A stretch of DNA of 8,483 nt from contig NZ_CAPJ01000395.1 in the NCBI RefSeq assembly GCF_000331775.1, forward strand, positions 1 to 8,483. Direction: 5' to 3'. The notes under the pieces were generated by a model that worked only from the letters and a program-made list of their open reading frames with translations, had not been told where the DNA came from and ran no database searches. Shown here one piece after another: positions 1 through 8,483 of the stretch (within the stretch, counting starts at the first letter, position 1; every line of letters starts with the position of its first letter). The translations under genes were made by a program, and so were the position numbers. The DNA is from Xanthomonas translucens pv. translucens DSM 18974 (GTDB lineage: Bacteria > Pseudomonadota > Gammaproteobacteria > Xanthomonadales > Xanthomonadaceae).

Positions 1-438
1 CGCGTGCAGCAGCGGCGCGCTCAGCGTCACCGCCTGCCAGCCGCGCGCGGCCAGCACATAGCCGAGCGGGCCGAACACCGCGCCGAACAGCGTCGCGCGC
101 CACGGCTGTTGCATGACCCAGGCCAGCGAATGGTTGAAGGTCAGCGCGAAGCCGGCCCACAGCGCCAGGATCCACAGCGGCGCCCACGGCGCCGGCGGCA
201 GCGCCGCGGCGTAACGCACCCAGCCGCCGGCGGCCAGTGCGGTATCGACGCCGGCGCCGAGCAGCAGCGCTAGCGCCATCAGCGTCGCATCGCCGCGCGC
301 GCGGCGCCGCGGCTGCAATTGGTACAGCGCGAACAGCGCCAACGCCGCAGGGCCTGCCCAGGCCAGCCCGTGCCCGGCGCCCATCACCGCCGCCAGCCAC
401 AGCAGCTGCAGCGCGACGTAGTTGGCCAGGTTGCTCAT
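1..438 (-). CDS. DUF2878 family membrane protein (3' end outside window)
   Basis: Function unknown; a small, very hydrophobic inner-membrane protein. The frame is open from the ATG at 438-436 to the window edge, giving 146 residues; the family as I recall it is about 170 residues, so only a short C-terminal piece is missing. Four or five hydrophobic segments are visible (about residues 7-22, 28-40, 52-70, 87-106 and 115-130). The stretch WAGFALTFNHSLAW (about 94-107), followed by GAVFGPLGYVLA (119-130), is what I associate with DUF2878. The start overlaps the methyltransferase stop by four bases (ATGA) and has no clear ribosome binding site, so reinitiation is likely. Proteins of this family often sit next to DUF1365, Cfa-like and FAD-oxidoreductase genes, as here. 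A role in membrane lipid modification is inferred only from this context. Confidence 0.85.
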   Translation of the reverse strand, partial: MSNLANYVALQLLWLAAVMGAGHGLAWAGPAALALFALYQLQPRRRARGDATLMALALLLGAGVDTALAAGGWVRYAAALPPAPWAPLWILALWAGFALTFNHSLAWVMQQPWRATLFGAVFGPLGYVLAARGWQAVTLSAPLLHA

Positions 439-1766
439 GCGTCGTGCGCCAGCGCCGGCGCGAACTGTGCCGGGCGCGCGCCCGGCTTGCTCAGCCACAA
501 GTGCACGTCGCCGATCGAGCGCTCCAGGAAGCCGCCCTCGCAATAGGCCAGGTAGAACTCCCACATGCGGATGAAGCGTTCGTCGTAGCCCAGCGCGCGC
601 ACCTGCGGCAATTTGGCCATGAAGCGCTGGCGCCAGGCGCGCAGGGTCAGCGCGTAGCTGGGACCGATGTCTTCCAGGTTGAACAGGCGCAGGTCGCTGG
701 CGCGCGCGATCGCGCCGGTCATCGCCGCCACCGAGGGAATGAAGCTGCCGGGGAAGATGTGGCGTTTAATGAAATCCACCGATGTCAGCGCCTGTGCGTA
801 GCGGTGGTCCTCGATCGTGATGGCCTGGATCAGCGCCTGGCCGTCGTCCTTGAGCAGGCTGCCGACCTTGCCGAAATAGGTGTCCAGGTACTGGTGGCCG
901 ATCGCCTCGATCATCTCGATCGACACCAGCCGGTCGTAGCGGCCGTCGAGGTCGCGGTAGTCGCGCAACAGCACCTCGACGCGCTCGGACAAGCCGGCGG
1001 CGTCCACGCGCTGGCGGGCCAGGTCGTATTGCTCGCGCGAGATCGTGGTGGTGGTGACGCGGCAGCCGTGGTGCCTGGCCGCATGCAACGCGAAACCGCC
1101 CCAGCCGGTGCCGATCTCGACCACATGGTGGTGCGGCTGCAGGTCGAGCTTGGCGCAGATGCGCTGCAGCTTGCGCTCGGCGGCGCGTTCCAGCGCGGCA
1201 TCGCCGAGCGCGGCGTCTTCGTCGCGGAAGATCGCCGAGGAATACATCAGGTTGCGGTCCAGGAACAGTTCGAACAGCGGGTTGCCCAGGTCGTAGTGCG
1301 CGGCGATGTTGCGGCGGCTGCCGGCGCGGGTGTTGCGCGCCAGCGCGTGCAGGCCGCGCATCGCCACGCCGCCGAGGCGGGCCAGGCCGGTCTCCATCGC
1401 ATCCAGGCGCTCGCGGTTGCGCACCAGCAGGCGCACCAGCGCGACCAGGTCGTCGCATTCCCACAACCCGTCCATATACGCCTCGCCGACGCCGACGCTG
1501 CCGTTCAGCGCGGCCTGGCGGTAGAAGCGCGGGTCGCGGATGCGCAGGTGCGCGTGCAGTGCGCTGTCCGCCTGCGTGGCATCGCCTGGCGTGGCGCTGC
1601 CCAGGGTGGTGATCGCGCCGGCCTCCTCGATGCGCAGCTGGCCGTCGCGCAAGCCGTCGAGCGTGGCGAACAGGCGCCGCCGCAGCAGGCGGTCGAAGCC
1701 GCGCAGCGGGGGCGCGGCCGGGGCCAGCGCGACGGAAGCGGAGGAGGGCGCGTGCGGAGCGTTCAT
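435..1766 (-). CDS. Cyclopropane-fatty-acyl-phospholipid synthase-like SAM methyltransferase
   Basis: A 443-residue protein of the Cfa/CmaA family (COG2230), which transfers a methyl group from S-adenosylmethionine to the double bond of unsaturated acyl chains in membrane phospholipids. An N-terminal region (about 20-150) precedes the Rossmann methyltransferase domain. Visible motifs are HYDLGN (157-162), LMYSSAIF (173-180), the SAM-binding motif VVEIGTGWGG (215-224), SIEMIEAIG (282-290) and DFIKRHIFPG (331-340). Aligned by eye to E. coli Cfa, the bicarbonate ligands Cys139 and His266 are replaced by Ser177 and Gln314, while Glu239 and Tyr317 appear kept as Glu287 and Tyr371. Ring formation is therefore doubtful; a UfaM-like methylase making methyl-branched or furan precursors is the main alternative. 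The ATG overlaps the DUF1365 stop (ATGA), with GAGA about seven bases upstream. Family assignment is firm, exact product is not. Confidence 0.95.
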   Translation of the reverse strand: MNAPHAPSSASVALAPAAPPLRGFDRLLRRRLFATLDGLRDGQLRIEEAGAITTLGSATPGDATQADSALHAHLRIRDPRFYRQAALNGSVGVGEAYMDGLWECDDLVALVRLLVRNRERLDAMETGLARLGGVAMRGLHALARNTRAGSRRNIAAHYDLGNPLFELFLDRNLMYSSAIFRDEDAALGDAALERAAERKLQRICAKLDLQPHHHVVEIGTGWGGFALHAARHHGCRVTTTTISREQYDLARQRVDAAGLSERVEVLLRDYRDLDGRYDRLVSIEMIEAIGHQYLDTYFGKVGSLLKDDGQALIQAITIEDHRYAQALTSVDFIKRHIFPGSFIPSVAAMTGAIARASDLRLFNLEDIGPSYALTLRAWRQRFMAKLPQVRALGYDERFIRMWEFYLAYCEGGFLERSIGDVHLWLSKPGARPAQFAPALAHDA

Positions 1767-2626
1767 CGGCGTTCTCGCGGAAGGGAATGATCGGGGTGGT
1801 CGTGCACCGGATTGCCGCGCAGCCACAGGCGCAGCGCCTGCCAGTGGATCTTGGCCACGATCTGCAGGGTCATCGCCGGATAGCGCAGCAGCGCGCGCGC
1901 CAGGCTGGTGCCGCAGATCTCGCGCCGCTGCAGCACCAGGGTGGCGTCGAAGCGCCTGGCCGCCGGTTGCCGATCCAGTACGTCCATGTGCACGCGCAAC
2001 TGCGCGCCCGGTTCGCTGCAGCGCCATGCGTAGGCGTGCGCCATCGCCATGAACGGGGAGACGTGGAAGCGCTTGTCGAAGCGCCAGGCGTGCACGCTGC
2101 CGTGGCTGCGCGCGGCGGCCACCGGCAGCACATAGGCGTGGCGCTGCTTCCACGGCGTGTTGGTGATCTCGGCGACGATGCTGTGCAGGCGCTGCTGCGC
2201 ATCGTGGCAATAGTAGAACGTGACCGGGTTGAAGCAATGGCCGAAGTAGCGCAGATTGGTCAGCATGCGCACCGCGCCGAGCGGGCGTTCGCCGCAGTGC
2301 TGCTGCACGCGGTCGCGCACCGCTTCGTCCAGCGCTTGCGCCGGATCGCCGAGGTAGTCGCTGCGGCGGAATTCTACCAGGTTGCGGCGGCCGACCGACC
2401 ACCACCAACGCCGCGCGAACACCTGCTCGAGTTCGGCCAGATCCAGGTACATCAGGAAGATCGGATAGCAGAACGCCAGTGCTTTGGGGGCGTAGCGGCG
2501 GTGCCGGACCCAGCCGCTGTACAGCGCGCTGTGCAGTCCCGGCATGGTCGTGCCCGCCGCCGCCGGCGTTGTCGAGACGGCGCCAGCCGGCGGGGCGGAC
2601 ACGGGAGCGCTGCGCAGCAGGTTCAT
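1763..2626 (-). CDS. DUF1365 domain-containing protein
   Basis: A 287-residue protein of the DUF1365 family (COG3496), whose biochemical role is unknown. Characteristic motifs are YSGWVRHRRY (36-45), NLRYFGHCFNPVTFYYC (124-140), EITNTPW (153-159) and KRFHVSPFM (185-193). The first 28 residues are rich in Ala, Pro and Thr and are not part of the family core. An alternative start at Met28 (ATG at 2545-2543) would give a more typical N terminus, but the upstream ATG overlaps the flavoprotein stop (ATGA) and is preferred because all other junctions in this operon have the same form. DUF1365 genes commonly lie between an FAD oxidoreductase and a Cfa-like methyltransferase, exactly as here, so a part in making or handling a modified fatty acid is inferred. 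Confidence 0.93.
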   Translation of the reverse strand: MNLLRSAPVSAPPAGAVSTTPAAAGTTMPGLHSALYSGWVRHRRYAPKALAFCYPIFLMYLDLAELEQVFARRWWWSVGRRNLVEFRRSDYLGDPAQALDEAVRDRVQQHCGERPLGAVRMLTNLRYFGHCFNPVTFYYCHDAQQRLHSIVAEITNTPWKQRHAYVLPVAAARSHGSVHAWRFDKRFHVSPFMAMAHAYAWRCSEPGAQLRVHMDVLDRQPAARRFDATLVLQRREICGTSLARALLRYPAMTLQIVAKIHWQALRLWLRGNPVHDHPDHSLPRERR

Positions 2627-3885
2627 GGCCAGGGTACCCCGAGCCCGGCGGCGACGTCGACCGCGCTGCGCAGGCCGTCTTCGTGGAAGCCAAAGCCCCA
2701 GCCGGCGCCGGCGAACCAGGTGCCGCGCTGGCCCTGGATCTCGCCCTTGCGCGCCTGCGCCGCCAGTGAGGCATGGGTCTGTAGCGGATGCCGGTAGCGC
2801 ATGCGCCGCAGCACCTTGGCCGGATCGATGTCGTCGCTGCGGTTGAGGCTGACGATGAACGGCTGCGGCGAGGCGATCGATTGCAGCGCGTTCATCCAGT
2901 AGCTGACCGTGCACGGCGCGTGCGGATCGGCCGGCACGTGCGCGTTCCAGGCCGCCCAGGCGCGGCGATTGCGCGGCAACACGCGCGCATCGGTGTGCAG
3001 CACGGTGTCGTTGTCCTGGTAGGCGATCGCGCCGAGGATCTCGCGCTCGGCAGTGCTGGCGTCGTTGAGCAGGCGCAGGGCGTCGTCGGCGTGGCAGGCC
3101 AGCACCACCTGGTCGTAGTGCTGGGCATCGGCGTCGCTGTCGGCATCGGTCAGCACCGACACGCCCTGCGACAGCCGCTGCACCGAACGCACCGGCGTGC
3201 CGACGCGCTCGTGTACGTGCCAGCGGCTGCGCAGCGCGTGCACATAACTGTTGGAGCCGCCCGCGACCACCTGCCACTGCGGCCGGCCGTTGACCTGCAG
3301 CATGTGGTGGTTGGCCATGAAGCCGATCAGCTGGCGCATCGGAAATTGCAGGATCTGCTGCGACGGCGAGGACCACAACGCCGACGCCATCGGCACCAGA
3401 TGCGCGTCGCGGAAGACCTGCGAATAGCGGTGCCGCTGCAGGAACTCGCCCAGGGTCAGCTGCGCCTGCGCCTCGTCGGCCAGCACCTGCGGCGCCTGCC
3501 GGTAGAAGCGGCGCAGATCGCACAGCATGCGCCAGAAGCGCGGGCTGACCGCATTGCTGGGCTTGCAGAACAGCCCGCCGAGGCTGCCGGCGTTGTATTC
3601 CAGCCCGCTGCGCGCCTCGTGCACCGAAAAGCTCATCGTGGTCGGCTGCGCGGCCACGCCGAGCTGCGCGAACAGCGTGCTCAGCAGCGGATAGTGTTGC
3701 GGGTTGAACACGATGAAGCCGCTGTCCACCGCGTAGGCCACGCCGTCCAGTTCGATCGCATGGGTATGGGTGTGCCCACCGAGGTAATTGGCGGCCTCGT
3801 ACAGGGTGACCTCATGCTGCTGCGACAGCACCCATGCCGACCCCAGCCCGGCGATGCCCGAGCCCACCACCGCGATGCGGCTCAT
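2623..3885 (-). CDS. FAD-dependent oxidoreductase (amine-oxidase-like, COG2907)
   Basis: A 420-residue flavoprotein. The N terminus is a Rossmann fold that binds the FAD ADP moiety: GSGIAGL at 8-14, then LYEA (28-31) and the GGHTHTH segment (36-42). The C terminus carries the second FAD contact, FAGAGWGFGFHEDGLRSA (391-408). The family resembles phytoene-desaturase and amine-oxidase flavoenzymes and usually travels with DUF1365 and Cfa-like genes. Known relatives by context are the flavoproteins that act with Cfa-like methylases in methyl-branched fatty acid synthesis (BfaA with BfaB) and the oxidative steps of the furan fatty acid pathway. I cannot tell which reaction this one performs, so oxidation or reduction of a methylated acyl chain is an inference. 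The start is the ATG that overlaps the desaturase stop (ATGA) and directly precedes the nucleotide-binding motif. Confidence 0.93.
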   Translation of the reverse strand: MSRIAVVGSGIAGLGSAWVLSQQHEVTLYEAANYLGGHTHTHAIELDGVAYAVDSGFIVFNPQHYPLLSTLFAQLGVAAQPTTMSFSVHEARSGLEYNAGSLGGLFCKPSNAVSPRFWRMLCDLRRFYRQAPQVLADEAQAQLTLGEFLQRHRYSQVFRDAHLVPMASALWSSPSQQILQFPMRQLIGFMANHHMLQVNGRPQWQVVAGGSNSYVHALRSRWHVHERVGTPVRSVQRLSQGVSVLTDADSDADAQHYDQVVLACHADDALRLLNDASTAEREILGAIAYQDNDTVLHTDARVLPRNRRAWAAWNAHVPADPHAPCTVSYWMNALQSIASPQPFIVSLNRSDDIDPAKVLRRMRYRHPLQTHASLAAQARKGEIQGQRGTWFAGAGWGFGFHEDGLRSAVDVAAGLGVPWP

Positions 3886-4871
3886 CGTGCTCGCGCCTGC
3901 GCCTGCGCCCGCACCAGCCCCGCCGGCACCGGCCGCAGCTGGCGGATCAGGCCGGTCCACGACAGCGCCTTCAGGCCATACCAGGTCAGGTCGATTTCCC
4001 ACCAGCGGAAGCCCTGGCGTGCCGCACCCGGGAAGAAGTGGTGGTTGTTGTGCCAGCCCTCGCCGAAGGTCATCAGCGCCAGCCAGGCGTTGTTGCGGCT
4101 GTCGTCGCGGGTGTCGAAACGGCGGCTGCCGAAACGGTGCGCTAGCGAGTTGATGGTGAAGGTGGCATGGAACAGCGCCACGGTGGAGACGAAGAAGCCC
4201 CATACCAGCAGTTGCGGTCCGTCGGTGCCGAGCTGCGGATGGTGGCGTTGCAGCCAGCCGCCGAGCAGGAACAAGGCCAGCGCCAGCAGCGCCGGCAGCA
4301 GCAGATCGAAGCGGTCGAGGAAGCGCAGTTCCGGGAAGCGGCGCAGATCCGGGATCGCTTCCCAGTCGGTGCGGAAGCCGCGCGGGGTCAGGAACCAGCC
4401 GCTATGGCTCCACCAGAACCCATGCTGGCGCGGCGAATGCGGATCGGCCGGGGTATCGGTGTGACGATGGTGGTTGCGATGGTGTGCGGCCCACCACAGC
4501 GGGCCGCGCTGTACGCAGCTGGCCCCGAGCGCGGCGAACAGGAACTGCACCACGCGCGAGGTCTTGAACGCGCGGTGGGCGAAGTAGCGGTGGTAGAAGC
4601 CGGTGAGCGCGAACATGCGCACCGCGTACATCGCCACCGCCATGCCCACCGCGAACCACGATGCGCCGACCCAGAACACGCCCAGGCAGGCCAGGTGCAG
4701 GACGAAATAGGGCGCGGCGCGCAGCCAGTCGATGCGATCGGCGTGGGCCTCGTCCAGTTCGATCTCCGCACCCGTATCGAACCAGCGCCGCAGCGTGCGC
4801 GCCACGCGGCCGCGGCGCGGTGCGGGTGCTGCGGCAGGGGTGCGGGGATGGTCCGGAACGGGGCTCGGCAC
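3882..4871 (-). CDS. Acyl-CoA / fatty acid desaturase (delta-9 type, membrane di-iron)
   Basis: A 329-residue integral membrane desaturase of the OLE1/DesC type (COG1398), which uses O2 and electrons to place a double bond in an acyl chain. The three histidine boxes are present: HRYFAH (94-99), HRNHH (131-135) and HNNHH (274-278), with the supporting NSLAH at 241-245. Hydrophobic segments lie at about 54-90, 106-120, 188-205 and 221-237. I chose the GTG at 4871-4869. No in-frame ATG lies close to the family core, the longer frame from 4991 would begin upstream of the predicted promoter (4928-4901), and a weak GAG lies eight bases before the GTG. A GTG further in, at Val23, cannot be excluded. 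It heads a five-gene operon and may supply the unsaturated chain used by the downstream methyltransferase. The C terminus ends in an Ala/Gln/Arg run encoded by three near-identical hexamers (3893-3910). Confidence 0.92.
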   Translation of the reverse strand: MPSPVPDHPRTPAAAPAPRRGRVARTLRRWFDTGAEIELDEAHADRIDWLRAAPYFVLHLACLGVFWVGASWFAVGMAVAMYAVRMFALTGFYHRYFAHRAFKTSRVVQFLFAALGASCVQRGPLWWAAHHRNHHRHTDTPADPHSPRQHGFWWSHSGWFLTPRGFRTDWEAIPDLRRFPELRFLDRFDLLLPALLALALFLLGGWLQRHHPQLGTDGPQLLVWGFFVSTVALFHATFTINSLAHRFGSRRFDTRDDSRNNAWLALMTFGEGWHNNHHFFPGAARQGFRWWEIDLTWYGLKALSWTGLIRQLRPVPAGLVRAQAQARAR

Positions 4872-4900
4872 AAGCGCATCTCGTGGGGGATTCGGGTAGC

Positions 4901-4928
4901 GATACGGACAAAGCCGGAAGACGGATGC
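4901..4928 (-). promoter_or_regulatory. Predicted ECF sigma promoter of the lipid operon
   Basis: Read on the minus strand, GCATCC (4928-4923) and CGTATC (4906-4901) are separated by 16 bases and end 29 bases before the desaturase GTG. The same pair, extended to GCATCCG-N15-CGTATCGCT with equal spacing, occurs in front of the secreted-protein gene at 8007-7980. A CATCC-type -35 resembles my recollection of the SigK target in mycobacteria, whose anti-sigma factor RskA is the namesake of the one encoded here. The promoter role is inferred from the duplication, the spacing and the position. Confidence 0.65.
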
Positions 4929-4933
4929 ACTCG

Positions 4934-4956
4934 CGCCGCGACGTCGCTGCGCGGCG
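4934..4956. repeat. Inverted repeat just upstream of the predicted -35
   Basis: CGCCGCG (4934-4940) and its exact complement CGCGGCG (4950-4956) flank a nine-base centre. A ten-base palindrome GCGACGTCGC (4938-4947) overlaps it. The repeat ends six bases from the -35 element, a position suited to an operator or activator site. In such GC-rich DNA it could also be chance. Confidence 0.3.
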
Positions 4957-5119
4957 TTGCAGGCACGGCATGCAGGGCCATGGCAGCGCATCGCGGTCGC
5001 CGCTGGAAGCTAGCGTCCACGCAGGTCGGAATCGTCGGAGGATCGGCTACCCGGCGCATGTGCGACGGCTGCGGCGATGCTGCCTGCGCGCGAGTGGTGG
5101 CCGGGTGAATGTGTGGATC

Positions 5120-5163
5120 GGGGGAGCCCCTCTGCCACCGGGAGAGGGGTTGGGGTGAGGGGG
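5120..5163 (-). repeat. REP-like element, copy 1 (minus orientation)
   Basis: On the minus strand this reads CCCCCTCACCCCAACCCC followed by a hairpin with arms CCCCTCT and AGAGGGG (plus positions 5127-5133 and 5143-5149, nine-base loop). This is the head-plus-stem form of the intergenic REP-like repeats I know from Xanthomonas, Stenotrophomonas and Pseudomonas. A G-to-C difference next to the arm (GGCAGAGG instead of GGGAGAGG) shortens the stem compared with the usual form. Confidence 0.75.
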
Positions 5164-5212
5164 CGTCGGCACCGACAGCGTGGCTTACCTGGATGTGCGA
5201 GGCTTCGCCCGT

Positions 5213-5260
5213 CCCCTCATCCGCCCCTGCGCAGCACCTTTTCCCGCAGGGAGAAGGGGA
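5213..5260 (+). repeat. REP-like element, copy 2 (plus orientation)
   Basis: It begins CCCCTCATCCGCCCC (5213-5227) and continues to a hairpin with arms CCTTTTCCC (5237-5245) and GGGAGAAGG (5249-5257), a nine-pair stem with one G-T wobble and a three-base loop. It is a diverged partner of copy 1, placed head to head 49 bases away, as in a BIME-type pair. Lying 45 bases beyond the anti-sigma stop, it may also limit read-through or protect the 3' end of that transcript. Confidence 0.75.
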
Positions 5261-5302
5261 TTGCCTGTAGGCGTGTCGTGGTCTGTGCCGCGGCCCACTT
5301 GT

Positions 5303-6085
5303 CTACGGCGCCAGACGCAGCGTGCTGATGCCGCCCTTGGCCACGATCGGACCGGTGGCGATGCCGCTGGGTGCGCCGCCTGGCGGTTCCATCGTCACCG
5401 CCAGCAGCGCGCCGTCGCTGAGCAACGGCATCAGCGCGTCGGGAATGCGCGCCGCGCGCGCCTGCGCGTCGTCGAACACACCCATCGAGCGTGCCTTGCC
5501 GTCTGCAGGAATCAGCCACAGCTCCGGCACGCGCGCGGCGTCGTGGCCGCCGGCCAGCGGGGTCAGGGTGATGCGCTGCTTGTCGGCGTCCATCAGCACC
5601 ACGTAGCCGGGCTTGCCGTCGTCCTGCATCAGCGTCGAGGTCATCGCGATGCCGGTGTCCGCTGGCGCTGTGGCGACCGGCGGCGTGGGCGTTTGCGGCG
5701 GCAGCGACGGGCGCGCCACCATCAAGGTGAGCATGCAGGCCGCCGCGGTGGCGAAACCGCCCGCGCTCAGCCAGCGCCAGGTGCGTACGCTTTCCCAGAA
5801 ACCAGGCGCCGCCGCCGGCGCGCGCGGTGCCGACGCATCCAGGCCCAGCGACGCGCGGATGCGCACCCACACGCGCTCGGGGACCGCGACTGGCGCGATT
5901 TCGTCGGCCAGCGGCATCAGGTGCTGCTGCCATTGCGTCACCGCCGCGGTGAACGCGGCATCGGTGTCGATGCGCTGTTCGGCGGCGCGGCGCTCAGGCG
6001 CATCGAGCACGCCAAGCACGTATTCGCCGGCCAGCACGTCGCGCGGCGGCGGGGTTTCCTGCGGATCGGGCACGGATGCGTTCAT
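5303..6085 (-). CDS. RskA-type anti-sigma factor
   Basis: A 260-residue single-pass inner-membrane protein that should hold the adjacent ECF sigma factor inactive. The cytoplasmic part has the RskA-style N terminus LAGEYVLGVLDAPERRA (18-34) and no HxxxCxxC zinc motif. The transmembrane helix is at about 105-124 (WLSAGGFATAAACMLTLMVA). The periplasmic part has the typical RskA C-terminal domain, including ELWLIPADGKARSMGVF (188-204) and LLAVTMEPPGGAPSG (227-241). The family is named for RskA, which controls SigK in mycobacteria and is cleaved by membrane proteases to release the sigma factor; the release signal here is unknown. The ATG overlaps the sigma factor stop (ATGA), with GGA a few bases upstream, which would keep the two proteins in balance. 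Confidence 0.94.
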   Translation of the reverse strand: MNASVPDPQETPPPRDVLAGEYVLGVLDAPERRAAEQRIDTDAAFTAAVTQWQQHLMPLADEIAPVAVPERVWVRIRASLGLDASAPRAPAAAPGFWESVRTWRWLSAGGFATAAACMLTLMVARPSLPPQTPTPPVATAPADTGIAMTSTLMQDDGKPGYVVLMDADKQRITLTPLAGGHDAARVPELWLIPADGKARSMGVFDDAQARAARIPDALMPLLSDGALLAVTMEPPGGAPSGIATGPIVAKGGISTLRLAP

Positions 6086-6639
6086 CGTTCCAGGCACGCC
6101 TTCAGCTTGGCCAGGCCGCGCCGGATCCAGCTCTTGACCGTACCCAGCGGCGTTCCGCTGCGGTGCGCCAGTTCCTCGTAGGTGATGCCTTCGAAGAACG
6201 CGGTGCGGATCAGCTCGCCGCGTGGCGGCTCCAGTTCGCCGATGCACACGTCCAGGCGCCGCCCGGCCACGCGCCATTCGGTCTCGGCCAGCGGATCGCG
6301 GCCGTCGTCGTGCAGTTCGCCGGCGTCGTCCAGCGCCACAGATTGCCGCGCCGGTGCACGCGCGCGCAGATGATCGATGGCCTTGTTGCGGGCGATCATG
6401 GTCAGCCAGGTCAGGCCGCGCGCGCGCTGCGGATCGAACTGCGCGGCCTTGCGCCAGACGGAGGTGAACACCTCCTGCAGCACGTCCTCGGCTTCGCCGC
6501 GCTGCGGCACGATGCGCAGGCACACGCCGAACAGTCGCGGCGCGGTGCTGCGGTACAGGCGTTCGAATGCGGCGCTGTCGCCGGCCGCAGTAGCGACCAG
6601 CAAGTGTCCTGCTTCGTCGTGATCGGGCGTCTCGGTCAT
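6082..6639 (-). CDS. ECF-family RNA polymerase sigma factor
   Basis: A 185-residue sigma-70 family protein with only regions 2 and 4, the normal size for ECF factors. Region 2 spans about 24-93 (AFERLYRSTAPRLFGVCLRI, AEDVLQEVFTSVW at 50-62, LTWLTMIARNKAIDHLRAR at 76-94). Region 4 spans about 127-182, with the helix-turn-helix TYEELAHRSGTPLGTVKSWI at 153-172. It is followed by its RskA-type anti-sigma gene with a four-base overlap, the usual arrangement for this group. The ATG at 6639 lies just ahead of the conserved region and 58 bases after the preceding stop; no strong ribosome binding site is seen. It may be expressed from the promoter at 8007-7980 together with the two genes ahead of it. 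The same promoter sequence before the desaturase suggests it controls the lipid operon. Confidence 0.96.
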   Translation of the reverse strand: MTETPDHDEAGHLLVATAAGDSAAFERLYRSTAPRLFGVCLRIVPQRGEAEDVLQEVFTSVWRKAAQFDPQRARGLTWLTMIARNKAIDHLRARAPARQSVALDDAGELHDDGRDPLAETEWRVAGRRLDVCIGELEPPRGELIRTAFFEGITYEELAHRSGTPLGTVKSWIRRGLAKLKACLER

Positions 6640-6697
6640 GCCGGGCAACGGTGGCGAAGGTCGCGGCGATGCTACAGGCTTTCGCCGCGCGCGTCGC

Positions 6698-7069
6698 TCA
6701 ACGGCGCTGGCCGCGCCACAGTGCGAGCGCGGCGAGCAGTAGCAGGATTTCGAAGCCGGCCAGGCCGGTAGTGGTCGGCCCGACCGGCCACAGCCGCAGC
6801 AGGCTGGCGCTGCGGTAGAGCACGATCGGCACGTAGAAGGCCAGCGCCAGCAGCAGTCCGGTGCGGATCTGCCCGCTACGCGCGAAATGGCCGAACAGGA
6901 ATGCCATCCCCAGTTGCAGGCCGCCATAGATGACCAGGTACTCGGACTGGCCGGAGCGGTCCAGGCCGATATAGCCGACTGCAGCGGCGGTCTGCGCCGG
7001 CAGCAGCATGCACCAGATCGCCAGGACCGCGTACAGCGCGGCGTTGAACCACAGGTAGGCCTTGGCCAT
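6698..7069 (-). CDS. Small four-helix membrane protein (DUF4345-like)
   Basis: A 123-residue protein with four predicted membrane helices at about 6-24, 45-61, 70-86 and 102-118, and a basic C-terminal tail (WRGQRR). The segment YGGLQLGMAFLFGHFARSG (48-66) resembles DUF4345-type proteins; this family call is tentative and the function is unknown. The ATG at 7069 is supported by a good ribosome binding site, AAGGAA at 7080-7075, five bases away. It sits between the secreted protein (88-base gap) and the sigma factor (58-base gap), all on one strand, so it is probably in the same operon. A partner role in membrane sensing, or a response to membrane change, is only a guess from position. Confidence 0.85.
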   Translation of the reverse strand: MAKAYLWFNAALYAVLAIWCMLLPAQTAAAVGYIGLDRSGQSEYLVIYGGLQLGMAFLFGHFARSGQIRTGLLLALAFYVPIVLYRSASLLRLWPVGPTTTGLAGFEILLLLAALALWRGQRR

Positions 7070-7121
7070 GGATGTTCCTTGTCGTGGGAGGGGCGATGCC
7101 GTTGCATGCTTGTAGCGTCCG

Positions 7122-7136
7122 CGCCGGAGGCCGGCG
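7122..7136. repeat. Short perfect hairpin between the secreted and four-helix protein genes
   Basis: CGCCGG (7122-7127) and CCGGCG (7131-7136) pair around a three-base loop, 21 bases after the secreted-protein stop. No T-run follows on the minus strand, so it is more likely a weak attenuator or mRNA-stability structure than a full terminator. It could reduce expression of the downstream genes relative to the first one. Confidence 0.35.
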
Positions 7137-7157
7137 TGAATGCGCGCTCGGCGCGGG

Positions 7158-7946
7158 TCAGCGCGCGGCGCATTGCGCGACCAGCGGTTGCTGCACCGCC
7201 TGGTTCCAGGCGTCGTCGTCGGCCTGGCCGCGCAGGCGCTCGGGGAATTCGATGCGCACCTGCGCATAGCGGCCGCGCGCGTCGCGGACATTGCCGATGC
7301 CGCGGAACTCGAGCAGGCGGCGATCGCCGCGCGTATAGGCCACGGCGATGTTCGGCAGCACGCCGCCGTACCAGGCGTCCACCGCCAGCGTGTAGCGCTG
7401 GACGCCGGCGTCCGCCGCCGCGGGCTTGATCTGGAAATCCAGCGTGCGCAACGCACTGGGCAGCACGAAGGCCACGCGCTGCGGCGTGCCCTGGCCCAAC
7501 GCGTCCCAGTGCAGGCGCAGATAGGCGTCGAACCCGGCATCGATCACCTGCGGCGCCGCCGTCGCCGGCAATGGCGCGCTGCGTTCCGGCTGGCCGTCGC
7601 GCTGGCTGAACATGACCCGGCCTTTGCCGGCATGGCGCACGCCTTCGCGGTAGCCGCTGCGCGCATCGACCAGTTCGAAATCCGGGGCGATGCTGCCGTC
7701 GGCGATGCGCTTGCGCGCGAACGGCGTGCCGTCGGCGCAGCGGTACAGCACCAGCCGCGCGCCGTCGTCGCGCAGCCAGTGGCTCTCGCGGTATAGCAGC
7801 TGCTGGCCGCCCGGCGCATAGGCCAGGCCGTCGTAGTGCAGCATGGCCTGCGCCGGGGCGGCCGCGCCGAGCACGGCGATGCATAGGCTGGCCGCCAGCG
7901 GCAGGCGCGCGCGGGCGAGCGGGGCAGGGGCGATCGGCGTGGGCAT
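7158..7946 (-). CDS. Secreted/periplasmic protein of unknown function
   Basis: I do not recognise a family. The protein has 262 residues and begins with a clear Sec signal peptide: Arg12 and Arg14, a hydrophobic core (15-30) and a likely cleavage after AQA at 34. The mature part is about 228 residues, soluble and rich in short hydrophobic strands, suggesting a beta-rich fold. Its only two cysteines, Cys70 and Cys259, could form a disulfide. There is no lipobox. The start at 7946 is chosen because the signal peptide begins right after it and because the predicted ECF promoter ends only 33 bases upstream; the longer frame reaching 8129 would start before that promoter. As first gene of the group that includes the ECF sigma factor and RskA, it may be a product or a sensor of that system. 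Confidence 0.85.
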   Translation of the reverse strand: MPTPIAPAPLARARLPLAASLCIAVLGAAAPAQAMLHYDGLAYAPGGQQLLYRESHWLRDDGARLVLYRCADGTPFARKRIADGSIAPDFELVDARSGYREGVRHAGKGRVMFSQRDGQPERSAPLPATAAPQVIDAGFDAYLRLHWDALGQGTPQRVAFVLPSALRTLDFQIKPAAADAGVQRYTLAVDAWYGGVLPNIAVAYTRGDRRLLEFRGIGNVRDARGRYAQVRIEFPERLRGQADDDAWNQAVQQPLVAQCAAR

Positions 7947-7979
7947 GCGCAGCGTTTCCGCAGGATGGTGACAGCGAGC

Positions 7980-8007
7980 GATACGCGGCGGGCGCCGATC
8001 CGGATGC
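7980..8007 (-). promoter_or_regulatory. Predicted ECF sigma promoter of the secreted protein / sigma factor group
   Basis: On the minus strand, GCATCC (8007-8002) and CGTATC (7985-7980) are separated by 16 bases and end 33 bases before the ATG at 7946. The match to the sequence before the desaturase extends to 16 identical positions (GCATCCG and CGTATCGCT) with the same spacing, while the spacers differ. If both are targets of the encoded sigma factor, the sigma operon is autoregulated, as is usual for ECF systems. Confidence 0.65.
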
Positions 8008-8052
8008 GCCTTGGTGCGTGGCATCCCTCCTCGAGCCGCTCGCGCCACTGCC

Positions 8053-8084
8053 GCGCATGCGTGTTCACGGCAGCGTGCATGCGC
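8053..8084. repeat. Inverted repeat in the rnfB/secreted-protein gap
   Basis: GCGCATGC (8053-8060) and GCATGCGC (8077-8084) are perfect eight-base arms around 16 bases. A competing repeat, CTGCCG (8048-8053) with CGGCAG (8068-8073), overlaps it. It lies about 45 bases upstream of the predicted -35. It may be a protein-binding site or a chance feature of GC-rich DNA. Confidence 0.3.
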
Positions 8085-8141
8085 AGGCGTGGCGCTACGG
8101 GTTGGGCCTGTCGGACCGCCAGCCGGCACCGTGCGGCGTGA

Positions 8142-8158
8142 CCTGACCAGCCGTCAGG
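8142..8158 (-). terminator. Possible 3' hairpin after rnfB
   Basis: CCTGAC (8142-8147) and GTCAGG (8153-8158) form a six-pair stem with a five-base loop, 48 bases beyond the rnfB stop. A second small stem, GCCAC/GTGGC at 8165-8169 and 8176-8180, lies between it and the gene. No T-run follows, so termination by these alone is uncertain. Confidence 0.25.
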
Positions 8159-8206
8159 CGCTGCGCCACGCAGCAGTGGCTGGCGAGCTGACAGACCCAG
8201 CGCGAC

Positions 8207-8483
8207 CTACTCGGGAATGCACGACATGCCCTGGACCGGACGCAGCGCGATGCAATCCACCGGACAGGCCGGCACGCACAGCTCGCAGCCGGTGCACAGC
8301 GGCGCCAGCACCGTGTGCATGTACTTGGCGCCGCCGACGATGGCATCGACCGGGCACGCCTGGATGCACTTGGTGCAGCCGATGCAGTCGGCCTCGATCA
8401 CCAACGCCACCTGTGGCGGCTTGTGCGTGCCGCGGCTGCGGTCGTAGGGCAGCGGCCGCGTGCCGAGCACGTGTGCCAGCGCC
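8207..8483 (-). CDS. rnfB: Electron transport complex subunit RnfB/RsxB, C-terminal part
   Basis: The last 91 residues of a ferredoxin-like protein that enters from the right edge. Two complete 4Fe-4S motifs are present: [12 protein letters not shown] followed by [14 protein letters not shown], and [12 protein letters not shown] followed by VDCIAL. The first motif and the following block match what I know of E. coli RsxB (RnfB) almost word for word. RnfB passes electrons within the membrane Rnf/Rsx complex; in E. coli this complex keeps SoxR reduced. The protein stops about 15 residues after the second cluster, much shorter than the E. coli tail. The N-terminal membrane anchor and first cluster region would lie outside the window. 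No other rnf subunit follows, so this may be a stand-alone rnfB, as I recall for xanthomonads. The frame stays open upstream of the GTG at 8470, so that codon is not taken as the start. Confidence 0.92.

Follow-up and report, generated by a model that had tools for sequence, protein, structure and literature searches.

A putative ECF promoter core shared by a SigK-like sigma factor group and a lipid operon in Xanthomonas translucens, and by two sigma modules among its relatives

We analyzed a stretch of 8,483 nucleotides from Xanthomonas translucens pv. translucens DSM 18974 (hereafter the window), in which two copies of a two-part motif with the core GCATCC-N16-CGTA each precede a gene group. 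One group encodes a SigK-like extracytoplasmic function (ECF) sigma factor together with an RskA-type anti-sigma factor, and the other is an operon of predicted lipid enzymes. Both copies are probably ECF promoters for the encoded sigma factor, which would make the lipid operon its direct target and the sigma group autoregulated; from the sequence comparisons we give this reading a probability of about 0.87. Position, spacing, conservation and the co-occurrence of sigma module and promoter were computed, and it is conservation together with co-occurrence that makes a lipid-operon target with autoregulation the best reading. An earlier sequence-only reading of the window had proposed these roles and the assignment to -35 and -10 elements, and the proposal is supported: the motif is kept in 18 of 18 genomes of the genus that carry the locus, and among the chosen family genomes, with the form GCATCT allowed, 50 of the 51 that have a sigma module carry it at the operon, versus one of the nine that have none.

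In other bacteria, autoregulated ECF sigma factors and the control of these lipid genes by ECF factors are already known. We found no published account of the form controlled by SigK/RskA among Xanthomonas and Lysobacter relatives, or of a repeated exchange of two modules at one promoter: among the matches listed by a literature search, judged by titles and abstract openings, there was no SigK/RskA-type system for Xanthomonas or Lysobacter and no ECF module exchange at a constant promoter. ECF sigma factors are usually thought to be insulated, each with its own anti-sigma factor and its own promoter. Here one promoter core appears to serve two ECF groups with unlike sensors, at the same operon and in closely related species. 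This offers a natural system for testing how the input of a stress circuit can change without rebuilding its output, predicts cross-talking sigma factors, and points to a concrete candidate regulator of what is probably a furan-fatty-acid or methylated-lipid pathway in bacteria associated with plants.

Two copies of the motif in the window

The sequence-only reading described GCATCCG-N15-CGTATCGCT twice on the minus strand, with 16 identical bases, equal spacing and unlike spacers. A motif search agrees, giving 0 mismatches over the 16 bases at 4928-4898 and 8007-7977, each with a spacer of 15 and with unlike spacers between the halves. The two gene groups, and all genes concerned, lie on the minus strand as well. 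Each copy was said to end a short, similar distance before a chosen start codon, and the distances are 30 nucleotides (nt) from copy 1 to the ATG at 7946 of a 262-amino-acid (aa) protein and 26 nt from copy 2 to the GTG at 4871 of a 329-aa desaturase. The absence of a third copy from the window also stands: the next-nearest site (2799-2829, plus strand) has 3 mismatches, and shuffles give 0.32 expected matches at 3 mismatches or fewer. No sigma-70 promoter was found in 4850-8210. Comparison with relatives narrows the conserved portion to GCATCC-N16-CGTA, the bases 3' of CGTA being less well kept.

Conservation within the genus

Conservation ahead of both units in related species had been named as a check on the motif, and it was carried out in 20 genomes congeneric with Xanthomonas sp. 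NCPPB 1128. The sigma factor, the FAD (flavin adenine dinucleotide) oxidoreductase and GCATCCG-N15-CGTAT occur in the same 18 genomes, and the remaining two lack all three; where the locus is present, the two motif sites front the sigma group and the desaturase in every case (18/18), and an exact copy was found in 0/2 genomes without the sigma factor. Genus-wide there are 59 exact matches to GCATCCG-N15-CGTAT, 36 of which are these two sites, and 2 matches to a reversed control pattern.

The distance between the two sites varies among relatives. It is 3.0-3.7 kilobases (kb) in other loci of the genus and 7.3 kb in one genome (G009), where about 4 kb of extra DNA carries a gene resembling those for transcription activator-like (TAL) effectors on the opposite strand (L152:5007-8822) and both sites are kept. 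In the same locus the gene for the 262-aa protein matches partly, with no full-length frame near the usual start, and may be broken (L152:1950-2550).

Conservation within the family and co-occurrence with sigma modules

Among 80 of at least 511 sigma-factor matches that were listed, seven loci combine an RskA pair with a codirectional downstream lipid operon. The lipid-side site reads GCATCCG-N15-CGTA in all seven and the sigma-group site does so in five, the other two having GAATCC. A wider search of 297 family genomes for the FAD oxidoreductase was positive in 171, from which we chose 60 regions (two of them, L233 and L261, repeat L009 and L011). Loci were classed by the best sigma match and the anti-sigma type, which were concordant in every locus where both could be read. 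This gave 32 SigK/RskA loci, one with the RskA gene only (at a contig end), 15 ECF11/ChrR loci and 12 that lack an adjacent module. RskA anti-sigma relatives were located by tblastn in 32/32 SigK-class loci.

Before the desaturase, the strict core GCATCC-N16-CGTA is present in 25/32 SigK-class loci, in the RskA-only locus (1/1), in 15/15 ECF11-class loci and in 3/12 loci without a module; the seven SigK-class loci without it all have GCATCT-N16-CGTA. In the 48 module-bearing loci the only desaturase-side spacing encountered, of the 10-22 scanned, is 16. Six altered patterns were absent before the desaturase in all 60 loci, as was TGATCC (0/60, including the 15 ECF11 loci). At the sigma head the strict core occurs in 23/32 SigK-class and 15/15 ECF11-class loci. 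Of the 51 genomes that have either module, 43 carry the motif at the operon, or 50 when GCATCT is allowed, versus 1 of 9 genomes without, one of the 51 being counted by its anti-sigma gene alone; the Fisher p values, uncorrected for kinship, are 4e-5 for the strict core and 3e-8 with GCATCT.

Each module was also sought elsewhere in these genomes. A SigK-type sigma factor is present in 0/15 ECF11-class genomes and, away from the operon, in 3/12 module-less ones; of these three, G110 and G156 bear the motif in front of the operon. ChrR is found in 15/15 ECF11-class genomes and, elsewhere in the genome, in 5/32 of the SigK class; it was not found in the module-less genomes (0/12), in Pseudoxanthomonas (0/2), in genus genomes without the locus (0/2) or in those with it (0/11 searched, of 18).

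The flanking bases differ between classes. T follows CGTA in 35/61 SigK sites versus 3/30 ECF11 sites, and A stands two bases after GCATCC in 8/61 versus 22/30. For the position next to CGTA, covariation with the sigma class is suggestive.

The fixed geometry also bears on the idea that the element is an ordinary transcription-factor site. Two halves at a constant distance could suit a dimer, and the promoter assignment here is itself drawn from sequence. By eye, however, no inverted or direct repeat relates the halves; the desaturase-side gap does not depart from 16 in the 48 loci scanned, the presence of the motif tracks the module, and the layout matches published ECF11 promoters with mapped starts (PMC5507510, PMC4336711). 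We consider such a site very improbable.

Weighing the promoter assignment

Several observations weigh against the assignment of both sites to the SigK-like sigma factor. Judged by the GC-rich window alone, the motif pair is not above chance, since 3 pairs fitting the 7-15-9 mask occur there versus a mean of 2.19 in 100 first-order Markov simulations; a pair so unremarkable is why the case was built on position and relatives. Nine SigK-class loci miss the strict core at the sigma head (2 with GAATCC, 3 with a 17-base spacer, 2 with GCATCA, 1 with GCATCT and 1 cut off), and these changed sites are weak evidence because the search for the head spanned 1700-1800 nt. In one module-less locus (L245) the two parts of the core are 17 bases apart, at a point 106 nt upstream of the desaturase match. 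G116 has a SigK-type sigma factor elsewhere and no motif at the operon, and G211 has neither a SigK-type sigma factor nor ChrR, yet carries the motif there. With one mismatch allowed, the pattern gave 101 matches in five genomes versus 46 for the reversed pattern, which is no discrimination, and exact GCATCCG-N15-CGTATCG gave 19 matches in 16 of 119 family genomes, with 3 control matches. The association of the post-CGTA base with sigma class is not significant when kinship is considered, there being 3 independent pairs on well supported branches. Finally, a search of the DNA from the anti-sigma gene to the lipid operon gave no terminator, so read-through is possible.

The first of these points would fit a functionless chance pair, as such pairs are common in the simulated windows. 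That explanation is refuted by conservation, which extends to 18/18 locus-bearing genomes of the genus and throughout the family loci that we chose, and we leave it next to no probability.

The last point bears on whether the lipid operon is transcribed mostly by read-through from the sigma group, with copy 2 as a minor or relict promoter. In 32/32 SigK-class loci the sigma gene precedes the operon in the same direction. Between the two units of the window, a hairpin that was a candidate terminator folds no better than shuffles (z 0.56), and 4850-8210 holds one terminator-like site on the same strand (at 5821, within the anti-sigma gene) versus 0.8 expected. Against read-through, copy 2 is kept in 18/18 genus genomes that carry the locus, even where about 4 kb and an opposite-strand gene are inserted (G009), and also in two genomes whose sigma gene lies elsewhere, so we rate it as quite improbable. 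The segment from the anti-sigma gene to the lipid operon (5090-5302) is GC-rich and by eye contains repeat-like pieces.

Our preferred reading, two promoters of the encoded sigma factor, can be put as a mechanism in which sigma factor binding, transcription start, signal and lipid product are what we infer. RNA polymerase with the SigK-like ECF sigma factor would read GCATCC-N16-CGTA as -35 and -10 elements. The RskA-type anti-sigma factor would keep the sigma factor inactive until an envelope or oxidative signal released it. Promoter 1 would then fire the genes for a secreted protein, a small hydrophobic protein, the sigma factor and the anti-sigma factor, a self-reinforcing unit that makes its own brake, and promoter 2 would fire those for the desaturase, the FAD oxidoreductase, the DUF1365 protein, the methyltransferase and the DUF2878 protein. 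The products of this lipid operon may modify membrane fatty acids, perhaps into furan fatty acids.

One promoter core beside two sigma modules

The same operon adjoins a SigK/RskA module in 32 loci and an ECF11/ChrR module in 15. The core does not differ between them, and the motif therefore does not single out SigK. A quick tree of the four operon enzymes has 5 module changes. A careful operon tree (42 rows) also has 5, of which 4 are forced by well supported branches, and bootstrap trees have 4-5; the modules have thus switched at least four to five times on the operon tree. Both a single SigK clade and a single ECF11 clade were rejected by the approximately unbiased (AU) test. The clearest exchange joins L249 and L251 (ECF11) to L253 and L266 (SigK) with support of 100/100, and L241 (SigK) falls inside an otherwise ECF11 clade, again with 100/100. 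The pair L239/L241 was set aside as a showcase, as its sister relationship had support of 95 in the quick tree and only 80/56 in the careful one. Throughout, the operon-side core and spacing are unchanged across modules except for the GCATCT form.

A possible reason for the shared core is that the recognition helices of the two classes are nearly the same: sPlGsVKSWIRR in the SigK class and MPLGTVKSHlRR in the ECF11 class, most positions agreeing. The classes are otherwise distinct, the paired SigK cysteines being present in 32/32 SigK-class and 0/15 ECF11-class sigma factors. In six alphaproteobacterial ECF11 loci, TGATCC-N16-CGTA lies between divergent units in five and is missing from L069. 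This pattern is absent at the window sites, where GCATCC-N16-CGTA stands instead; given its presence in these ECF11 loci and in publications, the window promoter reads as one of the ECF11 type that differs at two bases and stands next to a SigK-type sigma factor.

On these grounds we lean, by a small measure, toward a fixed promoter with an exchangeable sensor. The lipid operon would have passed repeatedly between SigK/RskA and ECF11/ChrR, both reading GCATCC-N16-CGTA; the 5/32 dual-module genomes would represent a hand-over stage, and flanking bases may be retuned later.

Likeness between the classes also raises the prospect that the sites are real ECF promoters read in addition by another ECF sigma factor of the cell, so that the link to the SigK-like factor is shared rather than exclusive. 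SigK-type and ECF11-type sigma factors do adjoin the same core, with a nearly common helix PLG(S/T)VKS-x-(I/L)RR, and five of the 32 SigK-class genomes have ChrR elsewhere. Within the genus, on the other hand, ChrR was found in none of the 11 locus-bearing genomes searched (of 18), and the exact sites disappear together with the sigma factor. Such sharing seems unlikely to us, if still worth keeping in view, and control by the encoded SigK-like factor is the reading we retain.

Comparison with known systems

The mpt83-sigK-rskA cassette has been described for Mycobacterium and Yersinia. In M. tuberculosis, autoregulation of the sigma gene runs via the Rv0449c promoter (PMC7509140). The genes Rv0449c-Rv0447c of that species presumably encode three proteins: an FAD oxidoreductase, one with DUF1365 and one resembling cyclopropane synthases. 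As in that SigK/RskA system, the window has a SigK-type sigma factor with both SigK cysteines beside an RskA anti-sigma factor; unlike it, the window has two separate putative promoters, a desaturase in the operon, and another secreted protein in place of MPT83/MPT70.

With the ECF11/ChrR systems (R. sphaeroides RpoE, P. syringae PSPTO_1043, Shewanella RpoE2) the window shares the geometry ATCC-N16-CGTA, whereas it differs in having RskA rather than ChrR, a promoter starting with GC- rather than TG-, and a SigK-like sigma factor with two cysteines. For PSPTO_1043, chromatin immunoprecipitation sequencing gave the ECF11 consensus TGATCC-N16-CGTA, with control of RSP_1091, RSP_1090 and cfaS homologs and a binding peak before its own sigma gene (PMC5507510). 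In Shewanella, starts were mapped 3' of TGATCC and CGTATT/CGTAAT at the promoters of rpoE2 and the cfa operon (PMC4336711).

By annotation, S. maltophilia rpoEc-chrR-chrA with smlt2375-2367 shares the gene order, running from a periplasmic protein through a desaturase, an FAD oxidoreductase and a hypothetical protein to a cyclopropane synthase, again with an adjacent ECF sigma factor as the switch; it differs from the window in its ChrR-type anti-sigma factor, divergent layout and two cyclopropane synthases (PMC11832516). In the chrR mutant the operon rose 165- to 697-fold in one RNA sequencing experiment, and it reverted when rpoEc was also deleted (PMC11832516). The rpoE-chrR module of R. 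capsulatus is described as nearer to SigK/RskA than to RpoE/ChrR of R. sphaeroides, and as induced in photooxidative stress; it is a published precedent for one class replacing the other, by one module exchange and in a species for which the table in that paper has no RSP_1090/1091 homolog (PMC7074977).

The lipid enzymes resemble the furan-fatty-acid set. As judged by domain, a methyltransferase, an FAD/NAD (nicotinamide adenine dinucleotide) oxidoreductase and a DUF1365 protein stand together as in the UfaM/UfaD/UfaO operon; domains have been described for UfaD and UfaO, the latter holding DUF1365 (PMC7380195).

Other occurrences of the motif

The remaining 23 of the 59 exact genus matches fall into groups of 12 and 3 with 8 single matches, and none is claimed as a target or third regulon member. 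Ten of the 12 recurrent copies were read (L084, L085, L164, L166, L170, L176, L178, L184, L189 and L190, at 1501-1527). They lie 326-327 nt before an sdhC-like gene and inside an opposite-strand ygfZ-like gene (both by eye), and the other two (G011, G014) were assigned by identical sequence only. The letters of these copies are probably kept by the ygfZ-like codons, and a real site is also possible. Exact copies in L090, L168 and L171 (1501-1527) stand about 257 nt before a gene for a membrane-type protein (by eye). Matches from the looser one-mismatch search were rejected as targets, being too many, and 15 of the 19 matches to GCATCCG-N15-CGTATCG lie away from the locus (L129-L140, L145-L147).

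A further search does not establish the motif as general for SigK-type sigma factors. Among RskA-paired loci outside the lipid-linked set, searched over positions -1200 to +1700 of the sigma strand, G(C/A)ATCC-N16-CGTA occurs in 8/32: 3 before the sigma gene, in Lysobacter loci, and 5 just past the anti-sigma gene in other loci. Other spacings gave 0, and four control patterns at five spacings gave 0-2; the 24/32 loci without the motif include some in which the contig ends there. Lysobacter enzymogenes (L006; G005:C8, G005:C9) has two SigK-type sigma genes, one of them beside the lipid operon, both with the motif upstream.

Genes of the window

Coordinates and family assignments are collected in Table 1. 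The sigma factor scores 135 bits against the NCBIfam SigK subfamily, under that model's cut-off of 226, and among 20 solved sequences its best match is SigK (4nqw, 90.2 bits), followed by a narrow margin by R. sphaeroides RpoE (86.5). Its C132 and C182 align with the cysteines of 4nqw (M. tuberculosis 133/183). The anti-sigma factor, with its RskA_C domain, is not of the ChrR type. MPT83 is a fasciclin protein, and no fasciclin domain was detected among the window proteins scanned with Pfam; the mpt83 gene is dispensable for belonging to the SigK/RskA (ECF18/ECF19-type) class of sigma and anti-sigma factors.

Table 1. Putative promoters and genes of the window, in order along the minus strand
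Feature	Coordinates	Strand	Remarks
Putative promoter copy 1	7977..8007	-	GCATCC 8007-8002, N16, CGTA 7985-7982; heads sigma group
262-aa protein	7158..7946	-	First sigma-group gene; signal-like N-terminus (by eye)
Small hydrophobic protein (by eye), 123 aa	6698..7069	-	Weak DUF4345 match, under cut-off
ECF sigma factor, SigK-like, 185 aa	6082..6639	-	NCBIfam PRK12534, 352 bits, cut-off 267
RskA-type anti-sigma factor, 260 aa	5303..6085	-	PF10099 RskA_C, 79 bits, cut-off 29.4
Putative promoter copy 2	4898..4928	-	GCATCC 4928-4923, N16, CGTA 4906-4903; heads lipid operon
Fatty acid desaturase, 329 aa	3882..4871	-	PF00487; GTG start chosen, not proven
FAD-dependent oxidoreductase, UfaD-like by description	2623..3885	-	PF01593
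DUF1365 protein, UfaO-like by domain	1763..2626	-	PF07103, 280 bits
Cyclopropane-fatty-acid-synthase-like S-adenosylmethionine (SAM) methyltransferase, UfaM-like by family	435..1766	-	PF02353, 258 bits; ATG 1766
DUF2878 protein	1..438	-	PF11086, 130 bits; extends past window edge

Upstream of the sigma group lies a partial rnfB-like gene. The 262-aa protein had no Pfam or NCBIfam match; its structural model (mean predicted local distance difference test score, pLDDT, 87.9) has a predicted beta fold whose matches are weak to moderate, weakly resembling LolA/DUF1849. Its nearest named relatives, 98% identical, are from Xanthomonas graminis and X. translucens.

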